DNA of 64,000 nucleotides from Clytia hemisphaerica (Eukaryota > Cnidaria > Hydrozoa > Leptothecata > Clytiidae), in the NCBI GenBank assembly GCA_902728285.1, contig CACVBU010000078.1, positions 113,438 to 177,437 on the forward strand. The letters run 5' to 3'. This document shows positions 10,704 to 54,000 of the stretch, in pieces. The position numbers and the translations under genes are program-made. The notes under the pieces were generated by a model, which saw only the letters and a list, made by a program, of their open reading frames with translations, did not search any database and was not told the origin of the DNA. Each line of letters begins with the position of its first letter. The stretch's first letter is position 1.

Positions 10704-12501
10704 GTGTTCGCAAGCGAAAGTTTTTTTACACTACATACTAGTACCGTACGATCTTCCTTTATTCCCAGCGCAAAACTTTCCGATTGCTAGTGTACAACGG
10801 AAAAGGACCAAAACGCTACAAAAGTATATTTAACACTGATTTTTGCAGGAGACGCCTAGATAAAACAGCGAAAAGATCTCGGAGATGGGGCATGTATGTT
10901 TTCCCGGGAATGAACAAACCTCTTTTGTTATTTTCATGATCGTCACAAGGGCAAGGAAAATTTCTATCAATGAATTATAAACATGTACAGACTCTGGTGA
11001 AAAAAAGAAAGTTGATATTCTATTTTCAAAACAAACTGCTTTTTTGAATTGAAGTTTTTTTAACTCAAATATCTTAAATTATTTTTTCGTGAAACTCATA
11101 GGTAGGCCTAGGATTGAGATATCAAGCAATTAAAGGATGGAACAGTTAAAATCGGGTATTGAAATACGGCTTTAAACACAAGAAGCCCTCCCTAGGGGAA
11201 CCAAAGAAAGTTGGGCAGAGACAAGGCATATCAGTGATCATATCAGTTCTTCGAAAAATAGTGCACACGTAAAATAGGAATAGACTACGAAAATAAAAGG
11301 TAAACACTGTGATAAGACTAATTTAAATAGCAATAAAACACAAACCTATAAAATGAAAGCTCCATATAAATTTTCAAACGCGGCCAAGCTAAGTTCTGTA
11401 ATGTAAACCTTCCAGATGTTAAAAATTTTCCCGACCTTCAAAACTTTAGCTAGCCTGTTAGACAAAAACTGCTTTTTTATCGCGATTTTATAAAACAAAG
11501 AAAAAATTGGTTTGTGGGATATCAGGGGTCGTTGGGTTCATAATTCAATGTATGTTATTGAAAGACTCTAAGAGATCGTGCTGTTATTATAGCCCTTGAT
11601 CAGGCAGGCTAGCTCAGTCGTTGAAAGAAATTGGTTTTACTTCTGCTTTTATGCACTATGAGGACTACCGAGAAATGCTATTGAAGCCCTTGCTCATTTA
11701 TGTTGATTATGCTTTTACGCACTAATGGGGAATCCGTGATCCATTCAGTAATGTTTTAGTCTGGGGGAAATGTATACGTACTTGTTAGTATTTGTCATCT
11801 TAAAATGTTTATTTTGCTTTGTTTAGATACATACATAATTTTGATTAGTAATAAAGAAAATGAAACAATAACAATATGTTCATGAAGAAAAAACATTAAT
11901 ATGTTAAATCAAGTCAAAATACTATGAAGCATGTTCATGCATAATTTTCTTTTTAATACATATTCCCCAAGTACACCCAAATTCTAGCTATTGTGCCCAA
12001 TTGAGGTCCAAAGTGGAGCAGAGAAATTTTTTTTCTACAAAAAGGAATAGCAAAATACCTACAATTTAAATTGGTTGAATAGCACTTTTCTACAAGATCT
12101 TCATTTTTTTCTTCTTCCTTTTCATCTTCATTTTTAGAATTATTTTAAAGATTTTTTTATTTCAAATTGTTCCACTCACAAATATCTCACCAACGATACC
12201 AAATTTATAAAGATTGAAGAATTCCTTCGAAAGTTATAGGTAAAAGAAAAAAGAGTGCACACTAATCGTGAATAGACTTTAATTCGCGAGTTTCCACCAA
12301 AAAAAGTTAGTTCTAAGATGTGTGTCACGAAATGAAACATTTATCGACCTCAGCAGCGGGACTATTTCATGGAGCAGATTGTGAACATTTTAAGTTACGA
12401 ATAAGGCTTTTTTGTATTTGTGAGTATTTAATATTGTGATAATTTTCCTTCAGAGTTAAAATATGAAAAAATAATACATGGTGATATAAACAGTATTAAA
12501 T
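10704..12501. other. AT-rich region upstream of the FEN1-like pseudogene
   Basis: No gene, tRNA or clear repeat is recognised. It may include the promoter or 5' end of the transposon whose coding sequence starts at 12502, but no terminal repeat could be matched to the far side of that element. Confidence 0.35.
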
Positions 12502-14235
12502 ATGGAGATGGACCAGTTTTGTATAATATGTGGTGAAGGAGCTGATAAAGAAGTTTTGAGTCAAGCGGGTAAAATGAAAAATCGAGAAAACCTAAAGGAA
12601 AATCCCTTAAACTCACTTATAACTTTAGCCAGAAAATGTGATTCGGACGAACTAGTAGCTAAGCTCACAAGGAACAAAGAAAATAACATTTTAACGTACA
12701 ATCATCAATCTTGCAGAACAAACTTGAGGAACGCAGCTCGAAAAAGGAAATCGTCAGATGAAACCACAACAAGGTCAAGCAAACGTGTTTGTGGCAAACC
12801 TTTTGACTTTAAGAAATTATGCTTTTACTGTGAAAGTCTGTGCGAATTCGATGACAGACACCCTGATAGTTTTAAAGAATATTGTAAAGTTGAAACGATA
12901 GATACAGACATCTTTAAGGTGTCAATCGCGTAATGATGACCACGCTATGAATGTTCAAAGACGTTTGATGTCTGTTGTTGATCTCGTGGCACCAGAAGCA
13001 AGGTATCGTGTTGCTTGTAGAACGGCGTTTGAGGTTCCTCCTGACCGTAAAACACCTGGTCAGCCAGTTTGCACAACGAAAAGCGATTTGTTCGAGAAAG
13101 CGTGTACTGATTTTCTTCAAGATGATGTCTTTCCTTGGCGATGAAGTATATTCTGTGAAAATGACCAAAAATAAATTGGAAGAAAAGTACAAAAATTGCA
13201 TTAACTTTGTTTCCAGAGAAGGAAAAAGCAACATTATATTACTGAACAGAGCTGCTGAAGTACTATCGGAGAAGTGGTACAAAGAAAGACAAAATGGAAT
13301 CGGTGATGAAACTATTCGTATTGTAACAGCTGGAGTTTTGTTAAAAGAAGCCATCAAAAATTAGGAAAATGAATCAAAAACTTACCCAACATGCGACGAT
13401 ATAAGATCACCAATGAATCACGTACCCAATCTTTTGAAAATGTTTTTGAATCAACTTTTCACAACTGAAATCAAACAAGCAATAATATCACATGCAATCG
13501 TCGCTACAACAAGACCAAGAACTATCATGCCACTACAGTTCGGACTTGCAATCTCCACAGACTGTTATCGAGATTGGGGCTATCAAGGAGCCCCTTACTT
13601 CTTTGCATTTAAACACTTTTACCAGTTCACAGTAGATGACCAATTCTCTAACGAGAATAAATACTTTGGTTTCAGAGCTGGTTTGATGACCGAAACCCAT
13701 TTACCATCAGTAAAGATCTCATTTCACTGGACACAGGGCTGGTAGGCCTAGAAAACCGATTGACATGTGACAAAGCCGGCACAATCGGGGCTGCTATCCA
13801 CAAAGAATTAGAAGATCAATCGTATTCTGGTTGTACCATAAAACGAAGTAAACAAATTACTAATTTGCAAAGCTTGTATTCCAACGTCAGCATCGAGAAA
13901 GAAAAAGTATCCGTCGACCCGCTGACTCTCTTCCTACGTCTGATCGTCCTGAAAGCCTGAGAATGATATCGTTGATTACTTCAATTACGAGTTATCGCCA
14001 TATCCAATGTCCTTGTTTAAAGATGGCACCATGCGAACATCGCCGAAATCAGTTTTAAAACCATACCTTAGAAGTTGGAATCTGGCTGTTAGCATTCCAG
14101 AAACAATTCGTATTGTTGATGGTGGTGGTCTGCTGTGGTGTTGTGGAAAAGAGATGAATCATTCCGCGTAATTTTTCAAAGGTATGCAGTATTTCTCACA
14201 AATCACAACATCGATACAATAGTTTTTGACGGATA

Positions 14236-14930
14236 GTCCCGGCAATACGGGGCATGAGGTACCACCTTGACGGCGAAAAAGGTTTGAAACTGTTTTTGGG
14301 CTCCAACATACCTATATTTTGAGAATCACGATGGTTTTCAGGCTAACCAGGGGACTATAAGGCTCCATGGGGGCTTGTAGGGGGTAGGTAGAAAAAGTTT
14401 GGTCAAATCTGTTCCCTGGGGTAGGTCACTCATTTTTTACATTTTTCTAAAACTAGTGTAGCTATGATGATGGAATTTTGCATGATGATAGTCAATATAT
14501 TGAAAAACATTTCTACAAATTTTTGAGTCATTTCATTGTAATTTGTGTATTTTACAGACCAGAATATGGAAAATTCTTCAAAAAATAGCTGTTTTTGAAA
14601 AAAACGAAGTTATTTTTTTTTTTTTGAGTTGAATTAAGAAGCATGAAATTCTCAAAAAGTGGATCTTTATGAACTATAATGTTTACTGAGACACTTTGGA
14701 GGTTTCTGTGAATTTTCAGGGCTTTATTGGTATTTTACAGACCATAAGGATAACTCATTATTTTATAATATTTCTCTAAATTTCACCTCTACCAAGAAAA
14801 TGACACTTAAAAATCACAAATTTATTATAGAAATATTTTAAATACGAACATTGAATATGATTGACCATAATATCACAAATGTTCAGGTTGTTCGGGTGAA
14901 AAATGTGTATTTTGCAGACCAGAATATCGA
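14236..14930 (+). repeat. left terminal inverted repeat (~695 bp)
   Basis: Matches 20255-20965 in reverse complement over essentially its full length with scattered differences. It contains internal subrepeats of the form GTGTATTTT(A/G)CAGACCAGAATAT at about 14535 and 14903, with weaker versions at about 14730 and 15047. Evenly recurring words like this often serve as transposase-binding sites; that role is inferred. Confidence 0.85.
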
Positions 14931-16306
14931 CATTTCTTCAAATCTCGGTTGCATCTTTCTTAAAGAATCGTTTGTGGAGAGTTTCTTATTGTTCAAAAGA
15001 TTTAGATAGGCAATAGATTGTGGTAATGTTGGTCACTTGATTGATGTGTATTTTATATACCGGAAAATTGAACATAAGAAAAGCTCAAAAATCTTCAATG
15101 AACCATAATGGAGATTTTAAATAAATTGAAATGTTGTAAGTGTTATCAAATCATTGACCAGCGTCATTTACACTTATAAAACGTTGCTATCTTAAACAGC
15201 TCATTCATTCAAAGACTTCATCGCCAATATCCCTATTCTCAACATAACCATTATCATCATTATCATTGTCCTCACTTTCTTTACCATCGCTTTCTTCGTC
15301 TCCGTACTCTTCATCGTCAGATTGTTCTTCGCTTTCACTGTCAATCTCCCTGTCACTGTCACGATGTGTTGAGATCAATAATGTTGTTATGTCATCAGGG
15401 AGCATTTGGTCGATCCATTCTATATTTCCATCAATATCCCAACCACGTCCTGCTGGATGAGGGGGGTTAACCATCGCTGTACCTGCCAACTTTCAGTTTC
15501 TTGCTACATAGTTTGCTCTTTCAAACTGAAGATGTAATGATGATTTGCATGGTGGTATTAAGGATAAGTCAACGATGACACCCTTCCTTTGTTTCCGTTC
15601 AAAGAGTTGAAAGCGTGCATCATTGACATTTTTCTTGGTTGATCCGTACAGTTTACAAATGTATCTTTCTAATACCTCCATGACACCATCTGTAATATCC
15701 CAATCTTCTCCAAGCTGAGTAAAAGCTTCGACAACAGCATTATCATCTTTCATCACTTCCCAGCACCTGGATTTACCCTTCCGAAAGAACGAAGAAACGT
15801 AATCATTTCCGGTCAAAGCGTGAAAGCCGATCAATGCTTGACGTTGATCAGCTTGATCAGGAATCTATCAGCCAAAACACTGGTGACTTTCTGGACATAC
15901 TTCTCTGATTTGATGACTTGGGAATTTCGAAGAGGCTTGTACTGTACAGTATTTTCGCCGAAACCACAAAGATCTTTTAGTCTTTGAATAATTTCTGCTT
16001 GCTTTGGGCGATTAAGGCACCATTTGCGCACATTCATCGGATCGGATGCATATCCTTTGATTCCACCTAAAATACAATTTAACATTGATTGTTGGATTTT
16101 ATTTTAAATTAAGTGTATCTCTTGAGCGTTTCGAGCCCTACGGTTAGACTTAAAATATGTTATAAATGAATTAAGTTTTGATTAGATGTCTGAGCACCAT
16201 ATGGACAATTACCTGTAGTTTTAGCGTCTCTATTGATAGTCTGTTCTCCTCTTTGGTCAGCAGCAGTCATGACTTGAAGGTTTTGCTTTTAAATAAAATT
16301 GATATC

Positions 16307-16470
16307 GTTTGCTTACTTATCAATTTTATTTACAAGCTTTTTGATATTAAAAGTTGACACGAATGTGGAACAATAATGGTATATCAACACAACATAACAA
16401 TAGGCAGACACTGTCCTGAAATGAAACACGTGTCTATGAAAAGCGAACACTGATGTAAAAGTAAAACCTT
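16307..16470. repeat. short interspersed repeat (ATCGTTTGCTTAC family)
   Basis: Begins ATCGTTTGCTTACTTATCAA and continues with GACACTGTCCTGAAATGAAA. Related copies lie at 55408-55612, 60027-60062, 61189-61345 and 61411-61620. This one sits in the intron between the 17000-16538 and 16277-16213 exons of the transposon gene. Confidence 0.6.
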
Positions 16471-17732
16471 TAAGACTCTTTATTGCCTTCCAAGACAAGT
16501 TAGCTTCCAGAAAAATAAACAACAGAAAACCATGTACCTCGCATAATTTCGTTTGTTCAATATGAAATACATGGGCCGAAATTCCTTCCAACAATACATA
16601 AGAGATTTCCAGTCATTTTCCTGGATGGCAGTGTGCGCCATCGTTTGAGCTTTAATCAAATCAACGTAGATCATCCAAAACTGGGCGGTCTTGCCGATCT
16701 TTCCAGTTGAAACTTTTTTTCTGTAGTGTACGTATTTGTCAATGAATCTGTTCAATGCTACGGAAGATCGGTTATCCAGCTTGGACAATTCGAAGTTGAC
16801 TTCTCTCAAAGCAAAAGGAAGACGAGGGTTTTTATCAAATACGAAGCGTCTTAGTAGAAATCTTTCCAAAGACTCTGAGAAGGCTTCATGTATCACCCAA
16901 ACACGGTTATAATGCGATCCAGCTAAGACCCCCTCAAGACTTCCCATACGACACAAGTCCGGCTCAAAAATGATATCTCTGAAGCCAAGTCACCAAGAAC
17001 CTAAAAAGACAAGAAAGCAATGGACTGATAAAAGGTTCGGAGACGTTGTATTATAAATACAGATAGTTTTCATCGATCTCATAAGTATGTTACTTTTTTG
17101 ACTTGGAATTGCACTGTTTTTATTCTGTAAAAAATAAAATGCTATACCTGGAAGTTTTCTTTCAAGAAATGGAAGCTTCCAAGATGAACAATGACGTTTT
17201 TGAATAAAACAGGATTGTTCCATAACATGATGAAACAATTGATAGCAGCTCCAACATCCATCGTAACATGGACATATTTCATATTCATCGTCACGGTTAG
17301 ATTTTGAAGGTACTGGAGGTATCGAAAGATTGTTCTGAACTCAGTAACTTTGGCATTGATTAGTGGAAGATATGTCTCAGTGGTCTTAATGGGATTTCCT
17401 TTCGCATTTGTCATATTCTGCTTGAGATTCCACCCTTTGTAAACTGGTATCTGCTGGTCCATACTTGATTGGTGTCTCAATACGATCCAAATGAGGTATT
17501 TCTTATCAAAAGATGAACTGTCACACAAGTCGACCTGTTGTTGGAAACTGGCTGATGGATTTTTCTTCCTGTCAATAGTGATACTTTCAACACTTACATC
17601 ATCGATGAAAATCTTGCGATTTTTAGGCTTTTGAACTGGTAAGGCTTGTGTGTCTTGATATCGAAATTGTCGATCCAATAATAATAATAATGCTATACAA
17701 GTTCGCAGGCCACCGTGCGAGCACATGAGCCT

Positions 17733-18776
17733 CTATGAACCGCTCTTTGTTCGGTTTACAATTTTCTTAAGATAGAGTTTTTTCCTAGGGCTCCCCCTGA
17801 CTTTGAATTTAAAGTTTGCATCCTTTAGTGACGTGTTCATTTCTTGGGCTTTCATACACCACTCTTTGATTGTCTTCCTTTCACTTTTCGTAAGATCTTC
17901 TGTCACACAGAAGGGCAATCTCTCTCCTTTAGTGATTACTCTTAACACTGTATTTTTGTCTTCTTCGTTTGCAAATCGGACTTTTATTGGTCGATAGCGT
18001 TTTTCATCTTCCTTTTCCTTCGAAAATTTTCCGATTCTTTGAGTTTCTTCAATCTTTATATTCCTTAAGCTTAGTTTCTAGGTAAGACTTTTTCATTTAG
18101 ATATTCTTCGTCGTAGATTTTGGTTGACTCCTCTGAATCTTCAGTGGATTCGTCAACACCATGAAGAATTAGATTGCACGCCGTGGATTGAATCTGTCGT
18201 TCCTCCTGTTTTTCCCTTCGAAGTACGTTTTCTATGTTTTTCTCGATTTGCCTCGACGCGACTGCTGCGTAGCTTTGTGATTTATTTTCTCCTTTCTTCT
18301 CAATGATGTCTTCCATCTTCTTTTCGATCGTTGCCATTCTGGTCTCAAAGCTATCCTTTATTTCGCTGATCATTGTATTAACGTCTTTGGACTTTAGTTG
18401 AGTGATTTCTACGTCCTGGGCTTTCATTATATTTTCGCAAGCTTTTATCTCCTTTCGGAATCCTGAAACTGTTGATGTTTCACATGAATTGACCCGTTCC
18501 AATAGATCAGGGGTGATCACGACACAGTTTTGACAGACAAAAGCTCTCGATTTGTATGTTAGACATAACTGGATTTGATAGACGGGGAGCTTTGAACAAA
18601 TGTAGTGTACGATTCGATTGCACTTTTTACATTCAAGTCTTTGGATCTTCCTTCTTCACTTGTAACACATTCAGATGGGCTGCTTCACTTGTAACACATT
18701 CAGATGGGCTGCAAAGGTCGTAAATTGATGCTGAATTCGGTATTTTTCTTAGATTTTCCTGAATTTTCTCCGCCAT
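17733..18776 (-). pseudogene. PHD-finger/coiled-coil LINE ORF1-like protein, copy 1
   Basis: Starts MAEKIQENLRKIP. A tandem duplication of about 29 bp (around 18655-18712) breaks the frame. A Cys/His cluster follows (LECKKCNRIVHYICSKLP, then FVCQNC), resembling a PHD-type zinc finger. Next come a coiled coil with Lys/Glu runs, an RRM-like part (NLILHGVDEST, RPIKVRF) and an end motif VRGSPRKKLYL. A second frame break lies near 18072. No endonuclease or RT follows. It splits the gene at 15205-20143, whose coding sequence stops at about 18790 and resumes at 17726. Layout matches the plus-strand copy at 24111-25180. Confidence 0.65.
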
Positions 18777-20254
18777 CTTTACATCTTTTAACAACACATC
18801 CGTTCAGTTAATGAGCAAACAGTGCTGTGATGGTATTTGGTTGGTATGGCAACACAGGTTGATTTTGCTGCCTCTTGAGCCGCTTCAGATTGTGCAGTTT
18901 CTATGTTGCAAACACTATTGTAATTTATACAATGCCCAAGTCGATGAAGAAAATCAATCACCAAACGTGATCCAGTCAAATTATGAATGCCGAGACCAAG
19001 AAGCAAGTGCTTTGTTTGAAATACTGTTGTTCCTTTCATGCAACTAAAGACGATGTCCTCTGCAATCGAGTTGGTTAACCGACCTATCGAAGTAGATCTT
19101 GACGCTCTGTTTTTTGCTGTGTTTAGAATTGTTTCGATGAGCTTTAATAGGATTTTCGGTGGTTTGAATACCTCGCTATCTATCACATCGGGGCTAGGAG
19201 GCCAGGCAGGCTCTGGTATATCTTTGAATTTCTGTTGGATTGCATCTTGAATAATTTTCCCTGCTTTCAAAACAATGCGCTCAGGGTCTTGGTGGAAGCT
19301 TGTTGATGTCAGCGACTCGGTTGCAACAACTATTTCCGGTTTATTTTCTTCAGATGTTAAGAAAGATATCCTATCACCGAATTCATTTTTCAGCCGTTCT
19401 TTCAACTTGGCTCTGTAGCGAGTGTCTCCGTAAATAGAAAATGAATACATAGCCGTTAAAACTCTAGAGGTCAAACACATCACGTCCATTTAGCTTTTAA
19501 CAAAGTATTGTGCCATTTTTGATAATTTAAATACCTCAATTACGATAAAAAGATGCAACAATACATCAACACTATAACAAGACTTTTGACTTATTTTTGT
19601 TGTGATCTATCAAAAATATTACTGATAGTTACCTATTCCTAATCTATAAAGTTCATGCAAAGAGCCAATTGATATCGCACGTTGATCCCCAAAGACGATA
19701 TCATAAACGAACTTCTTGACGTCATCAAAGTTTGACGTATCGTATGACGAGCCACTGATGTTTGCTTCTTGATTGACAGTTTCCCCTACTGTTCTTTTGT
19801 CTGCGAAAGCCTTAGCTGTTGAGAGTTTGACGAATTTTTTGTAGCACTGTGCATGGACTTTGTATTCCTTGACAACCAAATCAACATTTAGGATATCGAA
19901 ATAATGGGCAGGGTCTTTCGATTTTGCCGCGTTCTTGATTGCAGCCTCTGCATCTCTCGTTAGAATTTTGTATGGTATAAATTTTCCCCCTTTACTTTCT
20001 TACTTTCTTTGTTGCAAATTTGACATTCTGGTTCAAAGAAACCGGGAATGGATGGCTCTGGACTTGAAAGTCTAGGTTTTTTTCTTTGGATTGCTGTTTC
20101 GTTGGTTTCCGAAAATCTACTGTTGCCAAGGATAACGGTGAACCTAGAAATAATTTGTTTTGAGTACTAAATTTTATCCTTTTAATGGCTTGCTGACTTT
20201 TAGTGGTTATTCAAATGATGAGCTAAAATTAAACCAGCGCAAAAATTAATATTG

Positions 20255-20965
20255 TCGATATTCTGGTCTGCAAAATACACATTTTTCATCCAAACAACCT
20301 GAACATTTTCTGATATTATGGTCAATCATATTCAATGTTCGTATTTAAAATATTTCTATAATGAATTTGTGATTTTTAAGACATTGAAAAATCGAAAGTG
20401 TCATTTTCTTGGTAGAGGTGAAATTTAGAGAAATATTATAAAATAATGAGTTAACCTTGTGGTCTGTAAAATACCAATAAAGCCCTGAAAATTCACAGAA
20501 ACCTCCAAAGTGTCTCAGTAAACATTATAGTTCATAAAAATCCACTTTTTGAGAATTTCATGCTTCTTAATTCAACTCAAAAAAAAAATGACTTCGTTTT
20601 TTTCAAAAACAGCTATTTTTTGAAGAATTTTCCATATTCTGGTCTGTAAAATACACAAATTACAATGAAATGACTCAAAAATTTGCAGAAATGTTTTTCA
20701 ATATATTGACTATCATCATGCAAAATTCCATCATCATAGCTACACTAGTTTTAGAAAAATGTAAAAAATAAGTGACCTACCCCAGGGAACAGATTTGACC
20801 AAACTTTTTCTACCTACCCCCTACAAGCCCCCATGGAGCCTTAGAGTCCCCTGGTTAGCCTGAAAACCATCGTGATTCTCAAAATATAGGTATTTTGGAG
20901 CCCAAAAACAGTTTCAAACCTTTTTCGCCGTCAAGGTGGTACCTCATGCCCCGTATTGCCTGGAC
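20255..20965 (-). repeat. right terminal inverted repeat (~711 bp)
   Basis: Reverse complement of 14236-14930. Carries the same TCTGGTCTG(C/T)AAAATAC words as the left arm. Confidence 0.85.
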
Positions 20966-21370
20966 TAGCTTGTCGACTAAAGATTCAACACACCAAAAGC
21001 GATCTGGGACTGCTTCTCAAGAAGTCGAAATCAAAGAGGCGAATCCTTGTCCAGCCAACAGAAAAACCTTTCTTGGGAACTACCATAACAAAGAAAGATT
21101 TTTTGCATGCCTGGCAGGTTACCTAAGAGAGCGCAACTTCAAAGTGGTCGAGTATCCAAGCGATGCAGACACTACCATTGTCAAAGAGGCGTTGAATGCT
21201 GCTAAGGATTCGTCTGTTGTTATCTACTCTGACGACACTGATATTTGTTGTTTGCTGTTGCATCACATCACCAAAGATTCGTCACTGAAGGAGATTTTCA
21301 TGGTCGATATGACTAAAAAGAAAGGCAAGCAAAGAGAATGCTACAACGTATCAGAAATTCTTCAAAGCAA

Positions 21371-23518
21371 CTCGAGTGTGTCAATGAGGTGAATTTTCTG
21401 GTCTGTAAAGTTTATCAAATTTTGCGATTTTCATAATGAAGGGTATTGAGCTCAAATTTAAACGTATAAACAAGTTCAGAATATTGTGTAATTGATTAAT
21501 TGTGAAAATATAACCTTTTAACTGAAGTTTAGGGCAAACTCTTTTGTTAAAACTGTCAAAAAACTCGAGTAAACGACCACTGAAGTAAGGTCCCAAAATT
21601 GCTGTTTATCAAAAAAAGCAACGACTCGACCGAGAGTTAAGGGTAAAAAACAACTGTTTAGGGTGACCTGCACATAGGGGCACCTGATCTAGGGTCGGGG
21701 CTAATTTTATGGCTTAAATATTTTCTTCAGGAATTTATTTTGTCCAAGGAAATTTCGAAGTCCAGACTTTGATCTCCTGTTATTCGAGATAGGGACCATG
21801 AAAAAATAGCCCCGACCCACGGTTTGGTCCGCAATTTATCTGGCTTTCAAGAAAATCTAAAATGGCTTTTTGATAGCCAATACAATCGCTGCATTTGCAG
21901 GTTTAGTGGGCCCCATTACTCTGCTAAAGAAAATTCATTGGATTCGAGAAAACATCAAAATTACAGACCAGACAAAAAATTACGTAATGCCCTCTACAAG
22001 CCACTGTGATTGGCTGATCGGGAAAAAGACGTGAAATCTGATTGGCGTAGAAAAAAGTGAATTCTTTTTAAGAAGGAGGCGGGGAAGAAAAAACAGGTGA
22101 AATGTCCCAAAGTGAACTTCAAAAATCAAGAAACTTGCAAAAATTGAAAGGAAAGAAATGAATTTTATTCTTCTTGTGAAATATTTTATAGCTCATTCAT
22201 AGGACAGGGATGCATCTAAACTAGAAGGACTAGATATCAGATTTAGAACAACGAGACAAGGTGACTTTTTGATACACAATGCACAATATATTTTAAACTT
22301 TCTGTTACTCAGACATAAAAAATCCAGAAAAAAATGACTCCAAAACCAGCTGAAAATCCATTTTTTTCTACATCCTGAAGAAAAAGAAAGAATATAAATA
22401 AATCTAATATAAATCAAGATTTGTGTCATCAATCCTTAACCTTAGAGATAAAGAAGATACTTTCAGTGAGACAGGGATGGTTAGCATAAAATACCCATCT
22501 TTTACTTCCATTCTCTTTAAAGACCATAATAATAATAGCATATAATATTGCATTTTAATCTACATTCTGCCAGAACAGGGATATTAGAAAATGAAAGAGC
22601 CTTAGCTCATATGTAGGGAAATTAAATATCTAAAGTGAGGAGAGTGAAGGGGGTTTAGCATTTGCCAGCAAATAATAATGAGCTGTGTCAGGCTGGGTTC
22701 TCCATGAATTTCGACCAATTTTGAGGTGGTAGAAGTTTCACAACTCCTTCTTCAGATGACAGTGAGAGAATTCTCTTGTTCTTGTCATCTGCGTCTTGAA
22801 TAATATCAAGAATCCACAATTAATAAAAGTTAACTAACCTTTGTTTTATTGCAGTTGAGCTCCAGCACGCATTTCAAATTCAAAAACATCTCAAAACTGA
22901 AGAAAGTTCGGTTTTTTCTTCTTCCCATCTTCTTCGTTCTTAAATTGCACTAACATCATCATCATCATCATCATTGACAACACCAAAAAAAATCTAAAGC
23001 TTTTTGGAGAATAAAATAAAGAATTGTAAACAACAAAGAAGTGAATAAAAATGAAAACTGAAGCTAAAACTCTGGGCAAAAATAATGCCCTTCCAATAAA
23101 CTTGTGCATCCAAAATACAGTTGAAATTACTAAGAAGTGTTTCCTGATTATCAATCATAATTCTTTGAAAGAAAATACATTTTGACTCTGTTTAATGAAA
23201 AGAATACCGATATGCAACATTTAGAAAAAGAAAATATCAGTCCTTCCCCTCTCAGAAAAAAATATTTCAATGATTTCGAAAGATCGAGTGACAAATAACA
23301 TTTTCCAGACTGTCCAGATTGAACGTACTTACTAAAATAAATTATTTCTAAACATTCGAAAACATTTGCGCGCTCGTGTGAACACTAAAAAACATTCGAT
23401 TTTCAAAGCGCTGTTTACATTTGAAAATTCGAATGTATTTTCGGCGTAAAGCTCTGTTTAGACTTAAACACGGAAAAAACTACAGACTCGCAAAATTCAC
23501 CTCATTGATTTCCTCGAG
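21371..23518. mobile_element. 2.15-kb non-autonomous TIR element
   Basis: Both ends start CTCGAG, then four differing bases, then TCAATGAGGTGAATTTT, in inverted orientation. AA flanks each end (21369-21370 and 23519-23520). Removing the element plus one AA restores the host frame exactly (EILQSN to TRIADFILF). The left TIR contains TTTACAGACCAGAA (reverse complement), the same word repeated in the TIRs of the 6.7-kb element. No coding region is convincing; the interior is AT-rich. Confidence 0.7.
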
Positions 23519-24110
23519 AACACACGTATTGCAGATTTCATTTTGTTTGCCCACGCATTCACTGGTTGTGATACGACATCGGCAATTTACAATTTCGGAA
23601 AGACGTCAATCTTCAACAAAATAGAAGAATCAACCGAAATTCAGTCACTCGTCAGAGAATTCTACGAAGAAAATTCTCCCGAGAAAATTGGCGATATCAC
23701 GATAAGGCTGTTTGAACTCTTGTACTCTTCAACGGATACATTGCGGAAGAAGAAGAAGAAGTACGAGCAAATGGTTTTGTCAAATCGTGCTGTCATCGAC
23801 CCTTCAATGCTACCACCATCACCTAGGGCAGCTTATTACCATGGCTTACGCGTGTATCACCAGTTGAAAGTATGGCGAGAGCTCCAAAATACCGACAACA
23901 TGCCACTTAACTGGGGGTGGCAGATGGTTTCTGAATCCTTTACTCCAATCATGACAGATATCGAAGCTGGTCCCTCTGATCTATTGAAAGTTATTCGTTG
24001 TGGTTTAAAGGTATGTTTGATACTTACAGGTGCACGTGTCGTAAAGCTGGATTGAAATTGCATTTTGTGCAGTTCTTCAAAAATGGTTGAAATTTAGCAA
24101 AATCAAAAAC

Positions 24111-25180
24111 ATGAACGAAAAAACCGACAAAAAGCAAGAAAAACAACCATTTGAAGAAGCTAAACAAAACCAAACATGCACTCCCACCTCCTGCTCAGAT
24201 GACGATGACCAAAACCGTCTAAAATGCCGAAAATGCCACCGCACGGTACACTACGAGTGCACACAATTACCGCTTTATCAGCTGCAAATTTTTGCCAACA
24301 CTTATAACGAACAATATCTATGTCAGAATTGCGTGCGGATAACACGATCTCTAATGAGTAAAATAGGTGAGAACTCGTATCATATGATGCAGAGGGAGAT
24401 TGAGAAGAAGGACGACGTCATTAAAAAGCTCAAAAACCAGCTAGCCAAGAACCGCAGCCTTAAGAACGATATCGAAAACATCTTAACCAATAAGATGGCT
24501 GACTTTGAAATAAAAACCAAGCAGATTATAAAAGAAGAAATAAAGCAAACGACGAATTACATAGAGAAAACATCAGAAAAAACATACGCTGAAATAACTA
24601 AGAAACACAAGGATAATTTCAAATCAGCAGTGAGAGAACACCAACAAGAAAACAAGAATGAAGAAAGAGACATCGAATCAAGAAAACGAAATATTATTAT
24701 ACATGGAATGGTGGAATTAGAGGTAGACAACAAAGAGGAACAACAGGAACAGGACAAAATAGATATTGAAGGTATACTAGGTAACATTGGCGTTCAAGAT
24801 ATCAAACCGTCCCACCATCATCGCATTGGACAAACCAAAAAGGGCTACATTGGCGTCCAATCAAGTTGATCTTAAAAAGTATAGAGGAAAAAGAACGGAT
24901 AATGCAAAATCTGCATAAGCTGAAACGATTCAATGAAATTGGTGGCTTTAGCATCACAGACGACTTCACCATCAACGAAAGAAAAATCATTAAAGGTATG
25001 TGCCAAAAGGCGAAAAAAATGAATTCAAAAAATGATGATTTCGTTTGGCATGTAAGAGGAAGCCCTAGAACAAACCTTCGCCTAGTTCGAAAATCTAGGA
25101 CAAAGACCAAAACAACGTCTTCTCTTCTGTCCATATCTTCTGACGACTGGACGACAGATGAAGAATTAGACAATTTATAA
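24111..25180 (+). pseudogene. PHD-finger/coiled-coil LINE ORF1-like protein, copy 2
   Basis: From MNEKTDKKQEKQ the product has a Cys/His zinc cluster (LKCRKCHRTVHYECTQLP, then YLCQNC), a long Lys/Glu coiled coil (about residues 85-200), an RRM-like segment (NIIIHGMVE, HHRIGQTKKG, RPIKLILKS) and a terminal VRGSPRTNLRLVRKS followed by an acidic end. ORF1 proteins of CR1/L2-type LINEs show this PHD-coiled-coil-RRM plan (family knowledge). A one-base shift near 24858 breaks it. No RT or endonuclease follows. It begins 50 bp after the FEN1-like pseudogene, in the same orientation. Confidence 0.7.
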
Positions 25181-25333
25181 ATCTAAAATTATTTCGTAGA
25201 GGTCGATAGACCTGTGAAATATAATTCTATGAATAAAAATGAAATGTACTTACCTTTGTAAGGAGTGCCATGGCACCTCTTGTACGAACACTGATGAAAC
25301 TGACGATACTAACGATTCTGGGGAGGATCTTAA

Positions 25334-25552: not shown

Positions 25553-25556
25553 TTAA

Positions 25557-27029
25557 TGCTTTATATAATGAAGACGAAGAAAGGAACTTTATGGATATCT
25601 TTAATTTTTTATCTTTGATTTTAAATCTTTAAATTTTGATTGACTACAGGAGCCAGGAAAATTCTAGACTGACTGATATATGACTTTTAAAACATCAGTT
25701 TAATAATAGCTAATTCGTAGCTTCAAGTGTGCTTATAAAAGATTTTCTTATATAAATAAATTCGATTTTCAATTTTCCATGACAAGGCTTGATCATTTTT
25801 TATTTAGATACATTGTCTAGCATAATGTTTTTAGATTTTATTTTGAAGATATAAGCTAGCATGCATATATACTTGTTTCTGTCACGTTTTGTACAAAGTA
25901 TTGCTATTGGTTGTAATTTTTGATGACATCAGCATTTTTGCAGATAAAAAAAAATAATGATCTTTAGCATTATGAAATACTTTTAAATCAGAATAATAAG
26001 AAAACTTTACACTTTGAAATCAAATTTTACCCCAGTCGATTTTTGAAAAATATAGAAGAAGTCTATTTTTGTCTGAAAACGCATTTTTTGACGACGTCAT
26101 CAATTTTTGGGCATTTTTTGTAATTTTTATTTTTTGTCGTATTTTAGTATTTCATTTTCTACCTATTTGCAAAATTTGAAGGTCATACCTTGCTGCAATC
26201 GTAAGTTACAGACGATTTAAAAGATATTTCAAAAACTCATTTTCTGCATTTTTGGGTTTTTACCACCTGTCACTGTTTGGTCTATAACTTTTTTTCCCCA
26301 GGACGAAAAAATTGGCCGGTTTCATTTTTGGAAAGCTGATAAAATTATCTTTCCAACGGTATATAGAAACCTTTTATAATAATTTTCTCTAGGTGGACCC
26401 TTTTTTAGACGAAATTCTACTGGACTAAAATCTATAAATAAAGAAACAAAATTAATTTTTAAATATTTTGGGGACCAGATTTTAAGATTTTTCTCAAAAT
26501 TGCTGACTTTATTTAAAAAATCCAAGATAAAAATCCGACGCCGTCGTAAAAAACGGAGGACCGAGAATAGAAACGGCGACACCGAGAAGCGGAGGCTCCA
26601 AAAACGACGGCATCGACTAAACGGAGACTCTAAGTCTCTAACGGCGACGACTAAACGGAGACTCTAAGTCTAACGGCGACGTCACCTTTCCTTTGAGCCC
26701 GATGACCCCTGATAGGATAGTGGGAAGATATGAGCTTTAGCACCATCTGGGTGCCAGATAAACCTAATACGACACACAGAACTCGTCTCGCAGTTTCTAA
26801 ATTTAGAACCGGTACGGGTGTGAATGGAGTTTTGGCGGCGGGTGGGGCGTCTGAAATGAAACCGAAAGTACCATTTTCGTGTTTTTTAACATGAATCCAT
26901 CATTGCAGATTTTCAAGAATGAAGTTTTTTTGAAAATGTAAACAAAACAAAGCAACTCATGCCGCTCTTTCGTGTAGATATTGGATATAGTTGGTAGTTT
27001 TTGAGAATTTTGTTTACTTTTTAGCTAAA
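25557..27029. other. intergenic region upstream of RUBCN
   Basis: AT-rich with no supported gene. At 26578-26690 a short tandem repeat of AACGGAGACTCTAAGTCT and ACGGCGACG words occurs. The RUBCN promoter presumably lies in the last few hundred bases, but no core element is clear. Confidence 0.4.
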
Positions 27030-48000: not shown

Positions 48001-51000
48001 TATCTCGGCAAATATTTTTGTACCAGTTGTCATCAGAAGGCAGAATCTGTTATTCCAGCCAAGATATTGTCCAAATGGGATTTCAAAAGGTATCTCATTT
48101 TTCGTTCGGCTTTGCTTAATTACCTGATATAATTTCAATGTTTTTTAATTGATCCTAACAGCTGAACCTAACATAAACCCTATGGAATTTTTTTCAATGC
48201 CAGCCGACCAAAATTTATTTTTGAAAGTGGTACCCTAATAAAAGAACAAGTCAATAGCGGTTTAATATATCGACGGCGCTGGGTCTACTTTCTTTGGATA
48301 CTTGTGATGTAGCGCCGTTGGACGTTAGGTAAAGTTTTAACCCTTCTTTGCGGGCACCACTTTTAATTCCGATTAAAGACATAGGATAGAGCTTAGACGA
48401 GACTCTACGAAGGTCAGTAGTTTAAAGGCTTTTCCATTCCATGTTTCAGGGTATTAATGGCATGACATTAGGAAGAATTGAGAGAAACTTTAGAGTCATC
48501 TAATTTTGAAGCTTGTTTTGTTTTTATGCGTACCTTATCGGGGAGAACTTTGTCGGGGAAAAGTGACGAAACTCTAGCCAAATGAAGAATATTTTTCCTG
48601 AAGAAGTTTAGGTATAACTTACCCGATAAAGTACGCACGATTTAATTTCTATAATCTCTACCACATACAATAATAACATTTGAAGGTTATTTTTCAGGAA
48701 ATGCATTAATTTTCTGTTTTTCAGATATTTTGTTTCGGATTTTGCACGTGACCTATTGAAGAAGATACACAGGGATCCTTTGTTCAATGTTCATGATATT
48801 TCTCCGAATCTTTACGATCGCGTCCGGCCACTCAACACAACCAAAGTAAGTATTGTGTTTTCCAGGCCTTTAAAAACCTGTGTTTTGCCTCATGCAATTT
48901 TTTGATTACTTTGTATGGTGGAGTACTTCCATCCTAATCCAGATAATCGACTTTTAGTGGGGAAACCTTTTCTTTTTGCTAACGAAAAAGCCTTTTTGTT
49001 TCGCTAACGAAAAGATTGAGAATAAAGTTCTTGGAAAAAAACATTATCATAATTGATAGTGTTAGTGGGCGGGAGACAAGAAATGGAGACGAGAATGAGT
49101 CCGTTGACCCTGAGATTATATATTTCATGTCAATGTAGGCTTATTGCTATATACAAGTGTGGCGGATATATTGGGGTCACTCCTATAGGAAAGTAAGGTA
49201 CACGGTCGGCATATGACAGAGGCCCCGTAAGTACCAAGGCTAACAGGCGACTAAACATGTGGGTACTCGGTCGGCATGCAGGATACAGAGGCCCCGTAAG
49301 TACAAAGGCTATCAGATACGGTACTCGGTCGGCATGTGTAATACAGAGGCCCCGTAAGTACAAAGGCTAACATAGGCCCTAGGAAGAGAATCTAGGCGTC
49401 ACAATCATGTGACCAACCGCCAAATAAAGGAACGGCCAAAGAGCGACCCCAATCCCACACCTACAGGGAGGGAAGAACATTACTAGACGAACTAGTGTGT
49501 GGGATGCCGAAAGAAAACAAACTTGTTAACGTGGAGTAATTAATAAGTTGAGTAAATACTAATATTACGGATGTATATAGAAAATACTTGATTATAAAGA
49601 GCGATTCTGATATGATAACTATATAATATGCTAAAATAAGAACGTAAGTATACCATTGAAATATACTATATGAAAAAAAAACAGGCTACCGCAGAATGTG
49701 AGTACCTAGATATAGTCGTATGGCTAAATGATGCACGAGGAGTAGGCCCGAATGAAAAAGGACGTCGAGTAGTAAGTGACTAGTAAGTGCTAGAAGTGCC
49801 GACGCAGTAGAGCACAGTAGAGATGTAAATAGGGCATAATTGTACGCTTGAATCCGACGAGGTAGATGCAAATAATATAATAAATACTAGAAAGGCTATT
49901 GTTGCTGAGGTGCATCTGGATTCCACAGTCCATGCCCAAGGGTTTTAGTTCGACACAATGATTGTCCTGTTTGCCTGATGGTTTTATCTGGGATACGAAT
50001 GTAAGTCTCAAAACAAGTGCTGTTCCATCTACCAAGTTGTTTAATTAGCCAGCTTGGTAGTCCTGCTGCTGCTGCTGTTGTGGCGGCTCCTATTCTGAAG
50101 GAGTGGGCTGAGATCGGATGTGTTTTGGTATTATGAAGAATAGTGTGAAGGAACTGGTTGAATCTGCGCCTAGTTAGAAACGAAACGTTTGAAAATGCGA
50201 AGAGAGGTCCGGATTTTTTCGGATGCATCCGGCAGAGGTCCTTTAGGTTACGAACAGGACATATTGGGTGACTGGTGGGACACAGGCGTATGACGCAGCC
50301 TTGGCGGAAGGGGTCTGTTTTTGATGCTTTTATGTTGACCAGGGCCATGGATGTCATTACGGTGATGTCATTGTATAATAATGTAGTGGTTGGTTCAAAC
50401 TTATGCGAGGATGGTGAGAGGTATTCTGATGAGCGTAGGAAGCCAAAGAATGCTGTTGTACAGGCGGTCCATAGCATTTGTCGGTCAAAGGTGCAATATT
50501 CTGAATTTAGCAGGTATTTGTAAATCTGAGTAAGTAGTTCAACTGTGATGGGTTGCCGTTTGGGTTTTTTGTATTGCGGGCCCTGGGTGCGTTTTATGCT
50601 GCGTATGAGGAGGTATAGTCGTGGAAGCGGTGGCAGTTGTGTGTGATAACAATATCGAATATCGTGGAACTTTAGTGCTGATAAGTGCATTTTGATGTTG
50701 TTGTATGACGAATATTCAGAGAGAAAAGTGGTGTAAAGCATTAGTACTTCCTCGGTTAATGGGAATGTTTGTAGGTGGAAATGTTGGCAGAAGTTGGAGT
50801 AGTTGGTGGTGCATCGTTTGTATTGTTCGTTGGTGCTTGGGGCCAGGGTGTTAGCCATGAGATGATGCATTTTTGTGGTTAGTCTCTCGATGGTTAGACT
50901 TCCCAAGCGTTGGATGGTAGCGGTGTTGGATGTGCGTCTGCTGATGGTGCTAGCTGCCGGAATCTTACGTCCTGGAAACGAGAAATAGCATCAGCTATAG

Positions 51001-54000
51001 GGTTATCAAGGCCAAATACATGTTTAAAAGAGATGAAACATTGAAGTCTAGCCGCAGTTAAGTATAATGTTCGAATGAGGGTCATGAGTAGGGGTGATTT
51101 CGTAGAGCCAGCCTGCCAAATCTGAGTGATTGGGAGATTGTCTGTTAAGAACACAATACGTTTCCCGGCCCAGTTATGCCCCCAGGTCTTAGTTGCGATG
51201 ACAATTGTAAAGAGTTCTTTAAAATCAATGTCATATTGTACGTTGGTAAACTGCGTGGGCCAAGCTGCTTGGATCCAGGAGTTTTCATAGATCGCCCCGA
51301 GACCAATGTTTGAAGCATCCGTGTTGAGTCTGATGTCACTGGAGAGTATGGTGAATGGGTCAGGAATAATGGATGATTTGTTCCAGGACGGGAGGAAGTC
51401 AATCCACCATTTGATGTCTGCACGTGCCTCGCTGTTTAAAGTAATATGATGATGCAATTTTGTGACTGATGTTGACGTGTCTATGAGTCGGCGTAGAAAA
51501 ATGCGACCAGGTCTAACAACCTTGCAAACAAATGAGAGTTTCCCAATTAGAGATAACAGTTCTTTTTTAGTACATTTTCGACGTGATGTCCAGAATGGCA
51601 GTGAATCTATCAGTTCAATATACTTATCCTCAGGTATGCGAATAATTTGCTCTGCTGAATCTATTTCAATCCCCAAGTAGGTTATCTGACGAGAAGGGCC
51701 TTCAGTCTTATCATCCGCAGTTGGGATTCCGAGGTCATGAAAAGCTGATAGCGCAGTTCCAATCTCATTGTTGGCTATTGATATTGTGGGTTGATGAACA
51801 AATAGGAAATCGTCAGAGTAATGTGTCGATTCAGTAAGATCGTATTTATTCTGAAGGATCCAATGTACTGTGTCTGCAAATGATGTAAATATTGCTGGTG
51901 ATGAACGTAATCCAAAAGGTAAGCGAGTGTCGACAAAGTACATGTCCTGCCAGTGAATGCCAAGTAATACCCATTGGGATGGATGGACGGGAAGGAGGCG
52001 GAATGCGTGCTGGATGTCAATTTTTGTCATCAAACAGTCCTTTCCCATTTTATATACAAGTTCTGTAGCCTGGTCAAAGCTAGCATATTTGACTAGGAAG
52101 TCCTCCTTGGGGATGCCTTCATTAATTGACTCGCCAAGTGGTTGGGAAAGGTCCATAATTAGTCGTCTTGTTCCATCTTTTTTTTTTCTCGCGAGCCCAG
52201 CGGTGAGCAATGTAGATTTTGTATTGGTGGTTCCCGGAATGGCCCAGAAGTGTGTTTTCGTTGTAGTTCTTTGCAGATAGCTGTAGTGACTGCCTCTTCG
52301 TGCTCTAAGGCTGACCGTAGGTTTTTTTGTAGGGATGGTGAATGAGGGCCATGGTAACCGATGTTAAAGCCGTTAGTCAGTCCATTGATTAAATAATTAC
52401 AAAGTTCCTGGTCCGGATGACCTACTAAGGCTAGTGAAAGATTATCTATACTTACAGGAGTTATGATGCCATTTGGTAAGGGATTAGCCGGACGTAGGTC
52501 TGAATGATGTACGGGTTGAGGATGCTGCTGAGAAACATTTGTTGCCGGGGTGACCTGCTGTGTAGCATTTGTTGCAGATATGGCGGTATTGGCAAGGGGG
52601 TTTATTGCAAAAACCGAGTTGATTGTATCGTCCGCAGATATCATTTGTGGCATTAGTTGGTTGACGTGTGTTGTTGGTTCCATTCCTAGAGAATGCGGTT
52701 TGTTGTGGATGATGGGAGTCATTCCGAAACTGTTTTTCTGCTACGTAGCTGTAGGGATTGTGTTTTGACAGATGATCTAGAGTTTGTTTTGTATGGGCAG
52801 GAGGATACGTAGTGCCCGAATGAGTGGCAGTGATAGCATGATGGTAATAAGGTTTCGCGTAAGTAAATATTGAATAGTTCGTCATTAGTTTTGCACCATG
52901 AAGCTGTGCGCAAGTCGGTGGGGAGCGAATGTTGAGCTGCTAGGGTATGACGAAGTGCTTTGTCGTACAGATAAACACTTTCAAACTTGTGTTTCCTGGC
53001 TATGGTGGCAATGTTCTTAAAATAGCTGAAGAGTTTGAAATGCATATCAGGGTGGTAGTGTAGGTAGGCTTGGCAGTATGTGTTCCAGGCACAGATCCAG
53101 GAAGGATAGTCACGGATTTTTGATTTTGTTTGGTTCGGCTTGAGATAGAGATTGTTGTTATCGTCGAGTTGGAAACCCAGTAGCTCGTTGCTGCAATTGG
53201 TTGAGGGTGGAGGGGGCAATATGTCGTCGAAATCAACGTACTCATGTTTCTTTATCTTGTTTAGGGTAGTAGTTTTAAGACCTGGTGGGCTGTAGGGATT
53301 ACTATAATTAAATGTACCTTGTGTTGGTTGTTGTGATAAGCTTTGTTGAAGGTCAAAACCAAAAACATTTTGCTGTTCTTCGATATAGGGCTCATCTTGT
53401 TCGTCATTTGTTATGAGAATGGCAGAATTCTTGTTTCTGTTTTTTTGCTGAGTAAGTGTTGGGTTGTTTTGATTCGGTGTAATTGGGTCTCGACTTTGTC
53501 CAGTCTCGAAATTGACGTGTGTCGGACTTTCGACGGAGGTGATTAGATTGTTTTGAGTAGTTTTATTAATGTTGTTATTATTATGAATGTTGTTCTTAAG
53601 TGTATCTAATTCGGTTCTCATTGATCGGAATTCCTCTAATACGTCTGATAGCTGGATGTTGGTAGTGTCGGTAGGAGGGTTGAAATGTTCAAATAATCGT
53701 GTTTGTAGTTCGATTTTCTTACCAACATGTGAGAGTTGCAGCTCTTTGAGTTTGTTTCTTAAACCAGTGATGGATGATTTCCCCCAGTCGGCTATGGAGT
53801 GGTCACGGTCGGTGTGTTCGTTTGCGTTGGACTTCTTTGTAGGCATTGTTGTAGAATATATGTCTTCGTTAAATAGTAAATTTCTTGTAAATAGTAAATT
53901 TTTTAATAACTAAGAAGAAAACTCACGACCGAAGAGCAGGGTCGAAGAAGAAGAAACCACGCGAGGTCTGGGTCGAATAAACACCGGAACGAGAGGACTA

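Follow-up and report, generated by a model that had tools for sequence, protein, structure and literature searches.

A dead, fragmented transposon copy in Clytia hemisphaerica whose relatives encode DDE-like and putative FEN1/XPG-like regions

We analyzed a stretch of 64,000 nucleotides from contig C61 of the Clytia hemisphaerica genome (417 Mb, 951 contigs), hereafter the window. Between positions 12365 and 26428, it holds a dead, fragmented copy of a DNA transposon, which is mostly an ordinary find: about 3.8 kb of transposon sequence is dispersed over this interval, four insertions interrupt it, and about 1.9 kb has been lost by internal deletion. The pieces are collinear with three loci in the same genome (L009, L010, and L011) at 90-99% DNA identity, piece by piece, and are as follows.

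12365..13562, + strand: N-terminal coding part with a disrupted frame, opening with a Cys-rich "zinc-type" segment from an ATG near 12502; 92-93% identical to L009, L010, and L011
13585..13644, + strand: short remnant directly 5' of the internal deletion; 96.7% identical to L009 1987-2046
13644..13649, + strand: deletion junction, about 1.87 kb with the DDE-like region gone; L009 2046-3914 has no counterpart, and the DDE-like open reading frame (ORF) is L009 2560-3711
13649..14235, + strand: pre-nuclease region with VDGGGLL and VFDG (XPG N-region); 95% identical to L009-L011
14234..20967, - strand: insertion 1, another transposon, broadly of this kind, nested in the first and carrying a degraded minus-strand gene; inverted repeats of about 700 bp
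20967..21371, + strand: putative nuclease core with STKDSTHQKR, SDADTTIV, and YSDDTD (XPG I-region); 97.8-98.3% identical to L009-L011, profile E 5e-57
21372..23518, no strand assigned: insertion 2 of 2147 bp, with inverted ends and a 3-bp duplication (AAC), delimited by comparison with L009
23519..24058, + strand: H3TH entry (HAFTGCDTTSA), followed by the C-terminal region and the first part of the Cys tail; 96% identical to L009-L011, profile E 1.3e-37
24059..25239, + strand: insertion 3 of 1181 bp, with TGAAAT duplicated; ORFs that overlap it contain a PHD-like Cys/His stretch (by eye)
25240..25333, + strand: remainder of the Cys-rich tail coding part; 98.9% identical to L009-L011
25334..25552, no strand assigned: insertion 4 of 219 bp, with inverted ends (AGGGACATTACAGTA...) and TTAA duplicated, resembling a miniature inverted-repeat transposable element
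25553..26084, + strand: 3' end of the element; 91.7% identical to L011 (over 25553-26428)
26085..26428, + strand: right terminal inverted repeat, ending ...TTCTACTGGACTA at 26427; the last base is perhaps flank

Four plus-strand pieces match a profile of the nuclease domain (E 1.4e-9 to 5e-57), two of them in the pre-nuclease region at 13953-14168 (1.2e-21) and 14120-14233 (1.4e-9). Because of these matches and the collinearity with L009-L011, the candidate nuclease pieces in the window are not a product of chance. The left end of the copy was not located: the only match of the L011 left inverted repeat in the window is the right repeat. With the left end and the DDE-like region lost and the remainder split by four insertions, this copy should be incapable of moving itself.

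An initial annotation, made from the letters alone, had taken 12502-24060 to be a single transposon-type gene with an apparent full FEN1/XPG layout. The element in fact continues to the right inverted repeat ending at 26428. The motif series that the annotation listed is largely present, with exact plus-strand matches to VDGGGLL (14115-14135), TKDSTHQKR (20976-21002), SDADTTIV (21159-21182), YSDDTD (21225-21242), HAFTGCDTTSA (23552-23584), and CTCRKAGLK (24031-24057), but the series does not make one gene and is spread over 10 kb in three frames. The string VFDGYS has no exact match in the window; VFDG stops where insertion 1 begins (about 14235), and STKDSTHQKR follows only from 20967 onward. 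In the relatives, the stretch from VFDG to TKDSTHQKR is uninterrupted (VFDGYSLSTKDSTHQKR).

Beyond this copy, we examined 28 loci (L009-L036), all picked by a match to the nuclease (C-terminal) region. The nearest elements have ends beginning TAGTCC(A/T)GTAGAA... followed by long inverted repeats, and more distant families begin TAGTCAGG... or TAGTAGAAGG...; across the relatives, the terminal inverted repeats measure 345-477 bp. Target duplications were scored in 11 of the 28 loci, as L018, L019, L022, and others have no clean pair of ends in their stretch and L029-L036, being short slices, were left out. Ends were fixed at the TAG...CTA terminus, which shifted some alignment ends by 1-3 bases. 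A 3-bp duplication flanks 10 of the 11 elements (L015 is counted although its last base is changed), and a 4-bp duplication flanks none. These 11 elements span 4.3-8.9 kb, seven of them 6.2-6.5 kb. L010 and L011 lie on different contigs and are 99.2% identical across 6.4 kb, and this near-identity points to recent movement.

In several relatives, long ORFs hold both the nuclease region and a second conserved region (1393 aa in L018, 1263 aa in L019, 1420 aa in L020, and 1101 aa in L021). The middle of these ORFs carries conserved LPIID, TFDQ, GGFH, and SDLxIEQ, with the motifs of the initial annotation C-terminal to it. We term this middle region DDE-like from its pattern of near-invariant acidic columns and from what is known of Academ transposases. 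It lies upstream of the nuclease in 27 of the 28 loci, the exception being L033. A Pfam scan of seven ORFs gave no transposase match for the region. When the genome was searched with the middle region of L018, at least 105 matches were returned (97 of 326 candidates scored), and none of the matches listed is on contig C61. L018 (1383-5561) and L020 (3858-8117) also contain long low-complexity repeats (VEGG/VGDS) that separate the N-terminal part from the DDE-like region.

The assignment of the C-terminal region to the FEN1/XPG family rests on sequence. Our alignment of the domain, A1, comprises 26 of 28 segments, including one window piece; L014 and L025 were left out, and shorter pieces had been dropped earlier. 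In A1, 216 columns hold residues from 18 or more members, and in 33 of these the commonest residue is acidic. Conservation is 90% or higher in eight of the 33, with the next acidic column at 67%. The eight are the FEN1-type motifs: the D of VDGG (20/20), the D of VFDG (22/23, with one E), both D of SDAD (25/26 and 26/26), the three D of DDTD (25/26, 26/26, and 26/26), and the D of GCD (18/18). Acidic residues of the metal-ligand type are thus conserved in the N region, the I region, and the entry to the H3TH, and we take them to correspond to FEN1 D34, D86, E158, E160, D179, D181, and D233. Freely varying acidic positions, which the initial annotation had named as a sign against a nuclease, were not seen.

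Profile comparison is consistent with this assignment. We built a host profile from EXO1- and ASTE1-type sequences plus fragments of FEN1- and XPG-type sequences, named by reading the host sequences, and hhalign matched A1 to it at 91.1% (E 1.1e-6, 136 columns, 16% identity). Controls remained low: at most 0.2% for 20 column shuffles, 0.1% for the reversed alignment, and 0.1% for the alignment of the element's own DDE-like region. Among 26 members searched against Pfam, XPG_I was found in seven, XPG_N in six, and XPG_I_2 in four, which are the top three of 18 families save for one tie at four. The domain resembles host FEN1/EXO1/XPG/Asteroid-type nucleases in the order and kind of its acidic motifs, the GCD entry to the H3TH, and the profile match, but it differs in its low identity, its fusion to a transposon protein, and its scores under the Pfam thresholds. 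Across the genome, the Pfam XPG models hit five and seven places, none of which is a fetched transposon locus; those on C649, C207, C338, and C493 look, from their sequence, like repair-type genes of the host, and the others are on C796 and C168. The initial annotation's observation of an apparent FEN1/XPG-type domain in a transposon context, with acidic residues conserved in the right order, is sound at the level of sequence.

Both regions show signs of constraint. In the nearer pairs L011-L016, L018-L020, and L021-L024, nonsynonymous divergence (dN) in the nuclease is 0.17-0.25, and in L011-L016 and L018-L020, it is 0.11-0.18 in the DDE-like region, with synonymous sites saturated in each case; two farther pairs have dN of 0.39-0.80 and are saturated too. 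Synonymous divergence (dS) is saturated, and hence dN/dS is not available, in five of seven nuclease pairs and four of four DDE-like pairs. The pair L013-L011 gives a nuclease omega (dN/dS) of 0.04-0.08. We read both regions as constrained over the time separating the families.

The Academ superfamily and its AcademX lineage were reportedly described by Kapitonov and Jurka (2010) and Kojima (2020), and the AcademX nuclease is reportedly of XPG type. Within the literature searched, no passage turned up that ascribes an XPG nuclease to Academ, which says nothing of papers beyond it. One report describes AcademX as a nuclease-encoding lineage of Academ with target duplications of 3-4 bp, and AcademH as one with a helicase and 9-10 bp duplications (PMC10045372); this description stands against the initial annotation's statement that it knew of no described superfamily built around a flap-endonuclease fold. 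In other sources, a RecQ helicase is mentioned for Academ (PMC3627910), the bivalve Academ consensus has a mean length of 5565 bp (PMC10294476), and Academ is listed among the DDD/E transposon superfamilies (PMC9587614). The relatives described here agree with AcademX in their 3-bp duplications (within 3-4 bp), a nuclease as predicted from sequence, large size, terminal inverted repeats, and a DDE-like region. AcademH belongs to the same superfamily, but the elements here duplicate 3 bp rather than 9-10 bp, and Pfam found no helicase in the seven ORFs scanned. Kolobok elements likewise combine a DDD/E transposase with an accessory nuclease, according to PMC9587614, but of other folds: a His-Me finger in KolobokP, where the nuclease is a separate gene on the opposite strand, and a lambda-exonuclease-like protein in KolobokE. 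Altogether, the element in the window is very probably a dead copy of an Academ-kind cut-and-paste transposon, most likely AcademX, whose intact form encodes one protein with a DDE-like and a FEN1/XPG-like region.

Several results weigh against this reading. The AcademX assignment rests on duplication length, the nuclease, and published text, and L010 lacks the 3-bp duplication. Single host sequences match the domain weakly (EXO1 34.6%, ASTE1 13.7%, FEN1 fragment 2.7%, and XPG fragment 1.2%), and a profile of the clade of the nested element (insertion 1) alone gives no match to the host nuclease profile (0.14%). Every Pfam XPG match is under the curated cut-offs (for L010, 16.3 versus 22 bits for XPG_N and 16.4 versus 24.9 bits for XPG_I), and unrelated families match equally well or better in fewer members (best E-values: PinA inhibitor 0.00059 and DUF7108_C 0.0032, versus 0.0071-0.014 for the XPG families); the scan of the seven ORFs gave a similar picture. 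Pfam returned nothing relevant for ten window fragments, and PDB sequence searches returned unrelated weak matches and no nuclease. A single-sequence fold of window 20970-21377 alone was of low confidence (predicted local distance difference test score, pLDDT, 52.8), and the best 50 of the 386 PDB structures that it matched include no FEN-type nuclease (lowest E 0.26; none at or below 0.001). Finally, the very close pair L012-L011 has an omega of 0.51-0.65. Pattern-led scans of viral contigs and prokaryote genome contigs yielded 53 and 40 pattern matches, respectively, and no confirmed relative.

In the intact element, one large protein comprises a Cys-rich N-terminus, the DDE-like region, the C-terminal FEN1/XPG-like nuclease, and a Cys-rich tail. 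The DDE-like region would cut and join the element ends, and the nuclease might, during excision or integration, trim or cut DNA intermediates that carry a branch or flap. A more specific version is that the FEN-type domain acts as a catalytic partner rather than an accessory and cuts one strand, e.g., the second strand at the element end or a flap at the target, and thereby sets the 3-bp duplication, which would make a two-enzyme transposase in one polypeptide; we regard this as rather unlikely.

The domain may instead have kept the fold and motifs and merely bind DNA or protein, without catalysis. FEN-like folds without activity exist, and nuclease activity is here a prediction from sequence; against this, no acidic columns other than the FEN-type ones reach 90% conservation, and we consider pure binding unlikely. 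It is very unlikely that the motif series is a chance resemblance in a domain unrelated to FEN1/XPG: such a reading would accommodate the sub-threshold Pfam matches, the negative PDB sequence search, and the lack of fold support, but it leaves unexplained the order of the motifs, the restriction of strong acidic conservation to these columns, and the profile-profile match with its controls. The initial annotation had proposed that a flap-type nuclease rather than a DDE transposase drives the element. The recognizable window pieces of this element are indeed nuclease only, and no window piece matches the DDE-like profile at 1e-5, but the deletion of about 1.87 kb relative to close relatives explains the missing region, which is why the earlier reader saw no transposase. 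We rejected the nuclease-only transposon, which is highly improbable given the presence of the DDE-like region at nearly all loci, its acidic columns, and its low dN. An ordinary or domesticated host gene with an XPG-like domain, broken by transposons, would fit the constrained long ORFs in the genome, but it can be practically dismissed in view of the many copies, inverted repeats, 3-bp duplications, and near-identical copies on different contigs (L010/L011).

Taken alone, the dead copy in the window is of little importance, except in showing that a deletion can mimic a nuclease-only transposon. The interesting question is the part of the nuclease during transposition. Transposase-like proteins fused to repair-type nucleases seem little studied, and this genome, with at least two families that have approximately 99% identical copies carrying both regions, offers material for asking what the nuclease contributes.

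Insertion 1 places one transposon of this kind inside another. Its repeats (14234-14932 and 20253-20967) are 95% identical and begin TAGTCC, with the terminal TA on either side ambiguous with the flank. Its minus-strand gene shows kinship with the main family, with pieces matching at E 3e-4 and 5e-4 and one DDE-like piece at E 1e-4. Relatives of the nested element (L060, L061, L062, and L064) have their own nuclease-type motifs, I(I/V)DM, VADTY, EEADT, GDTD, and GND, and the nested-clade profile matches A1 at 98.7% (E 2.8e-16). A clear 3-bp duplication was not seen at the nested site in the window; by eye, seven of eight other members of the nested family show one (one with a changed last base).

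Among the smaller observations, ORF sets in two of the insertions (17733-18655, - strand, and 24045-25180, + strand) share PHD-like Cys/His residues and "IIHG"/"ILHG", and are possibly ORF1 of a long interspersed element (LINE). Farther along the window, at 49896-53909 on the minus strand, ORFs with reverse-transcriptase-like and tyrosine-recombinase-like stretches (by eye) suggest a DIRS-type retrotransposon. A strong GC skew runs across 50-54 kb of the window.

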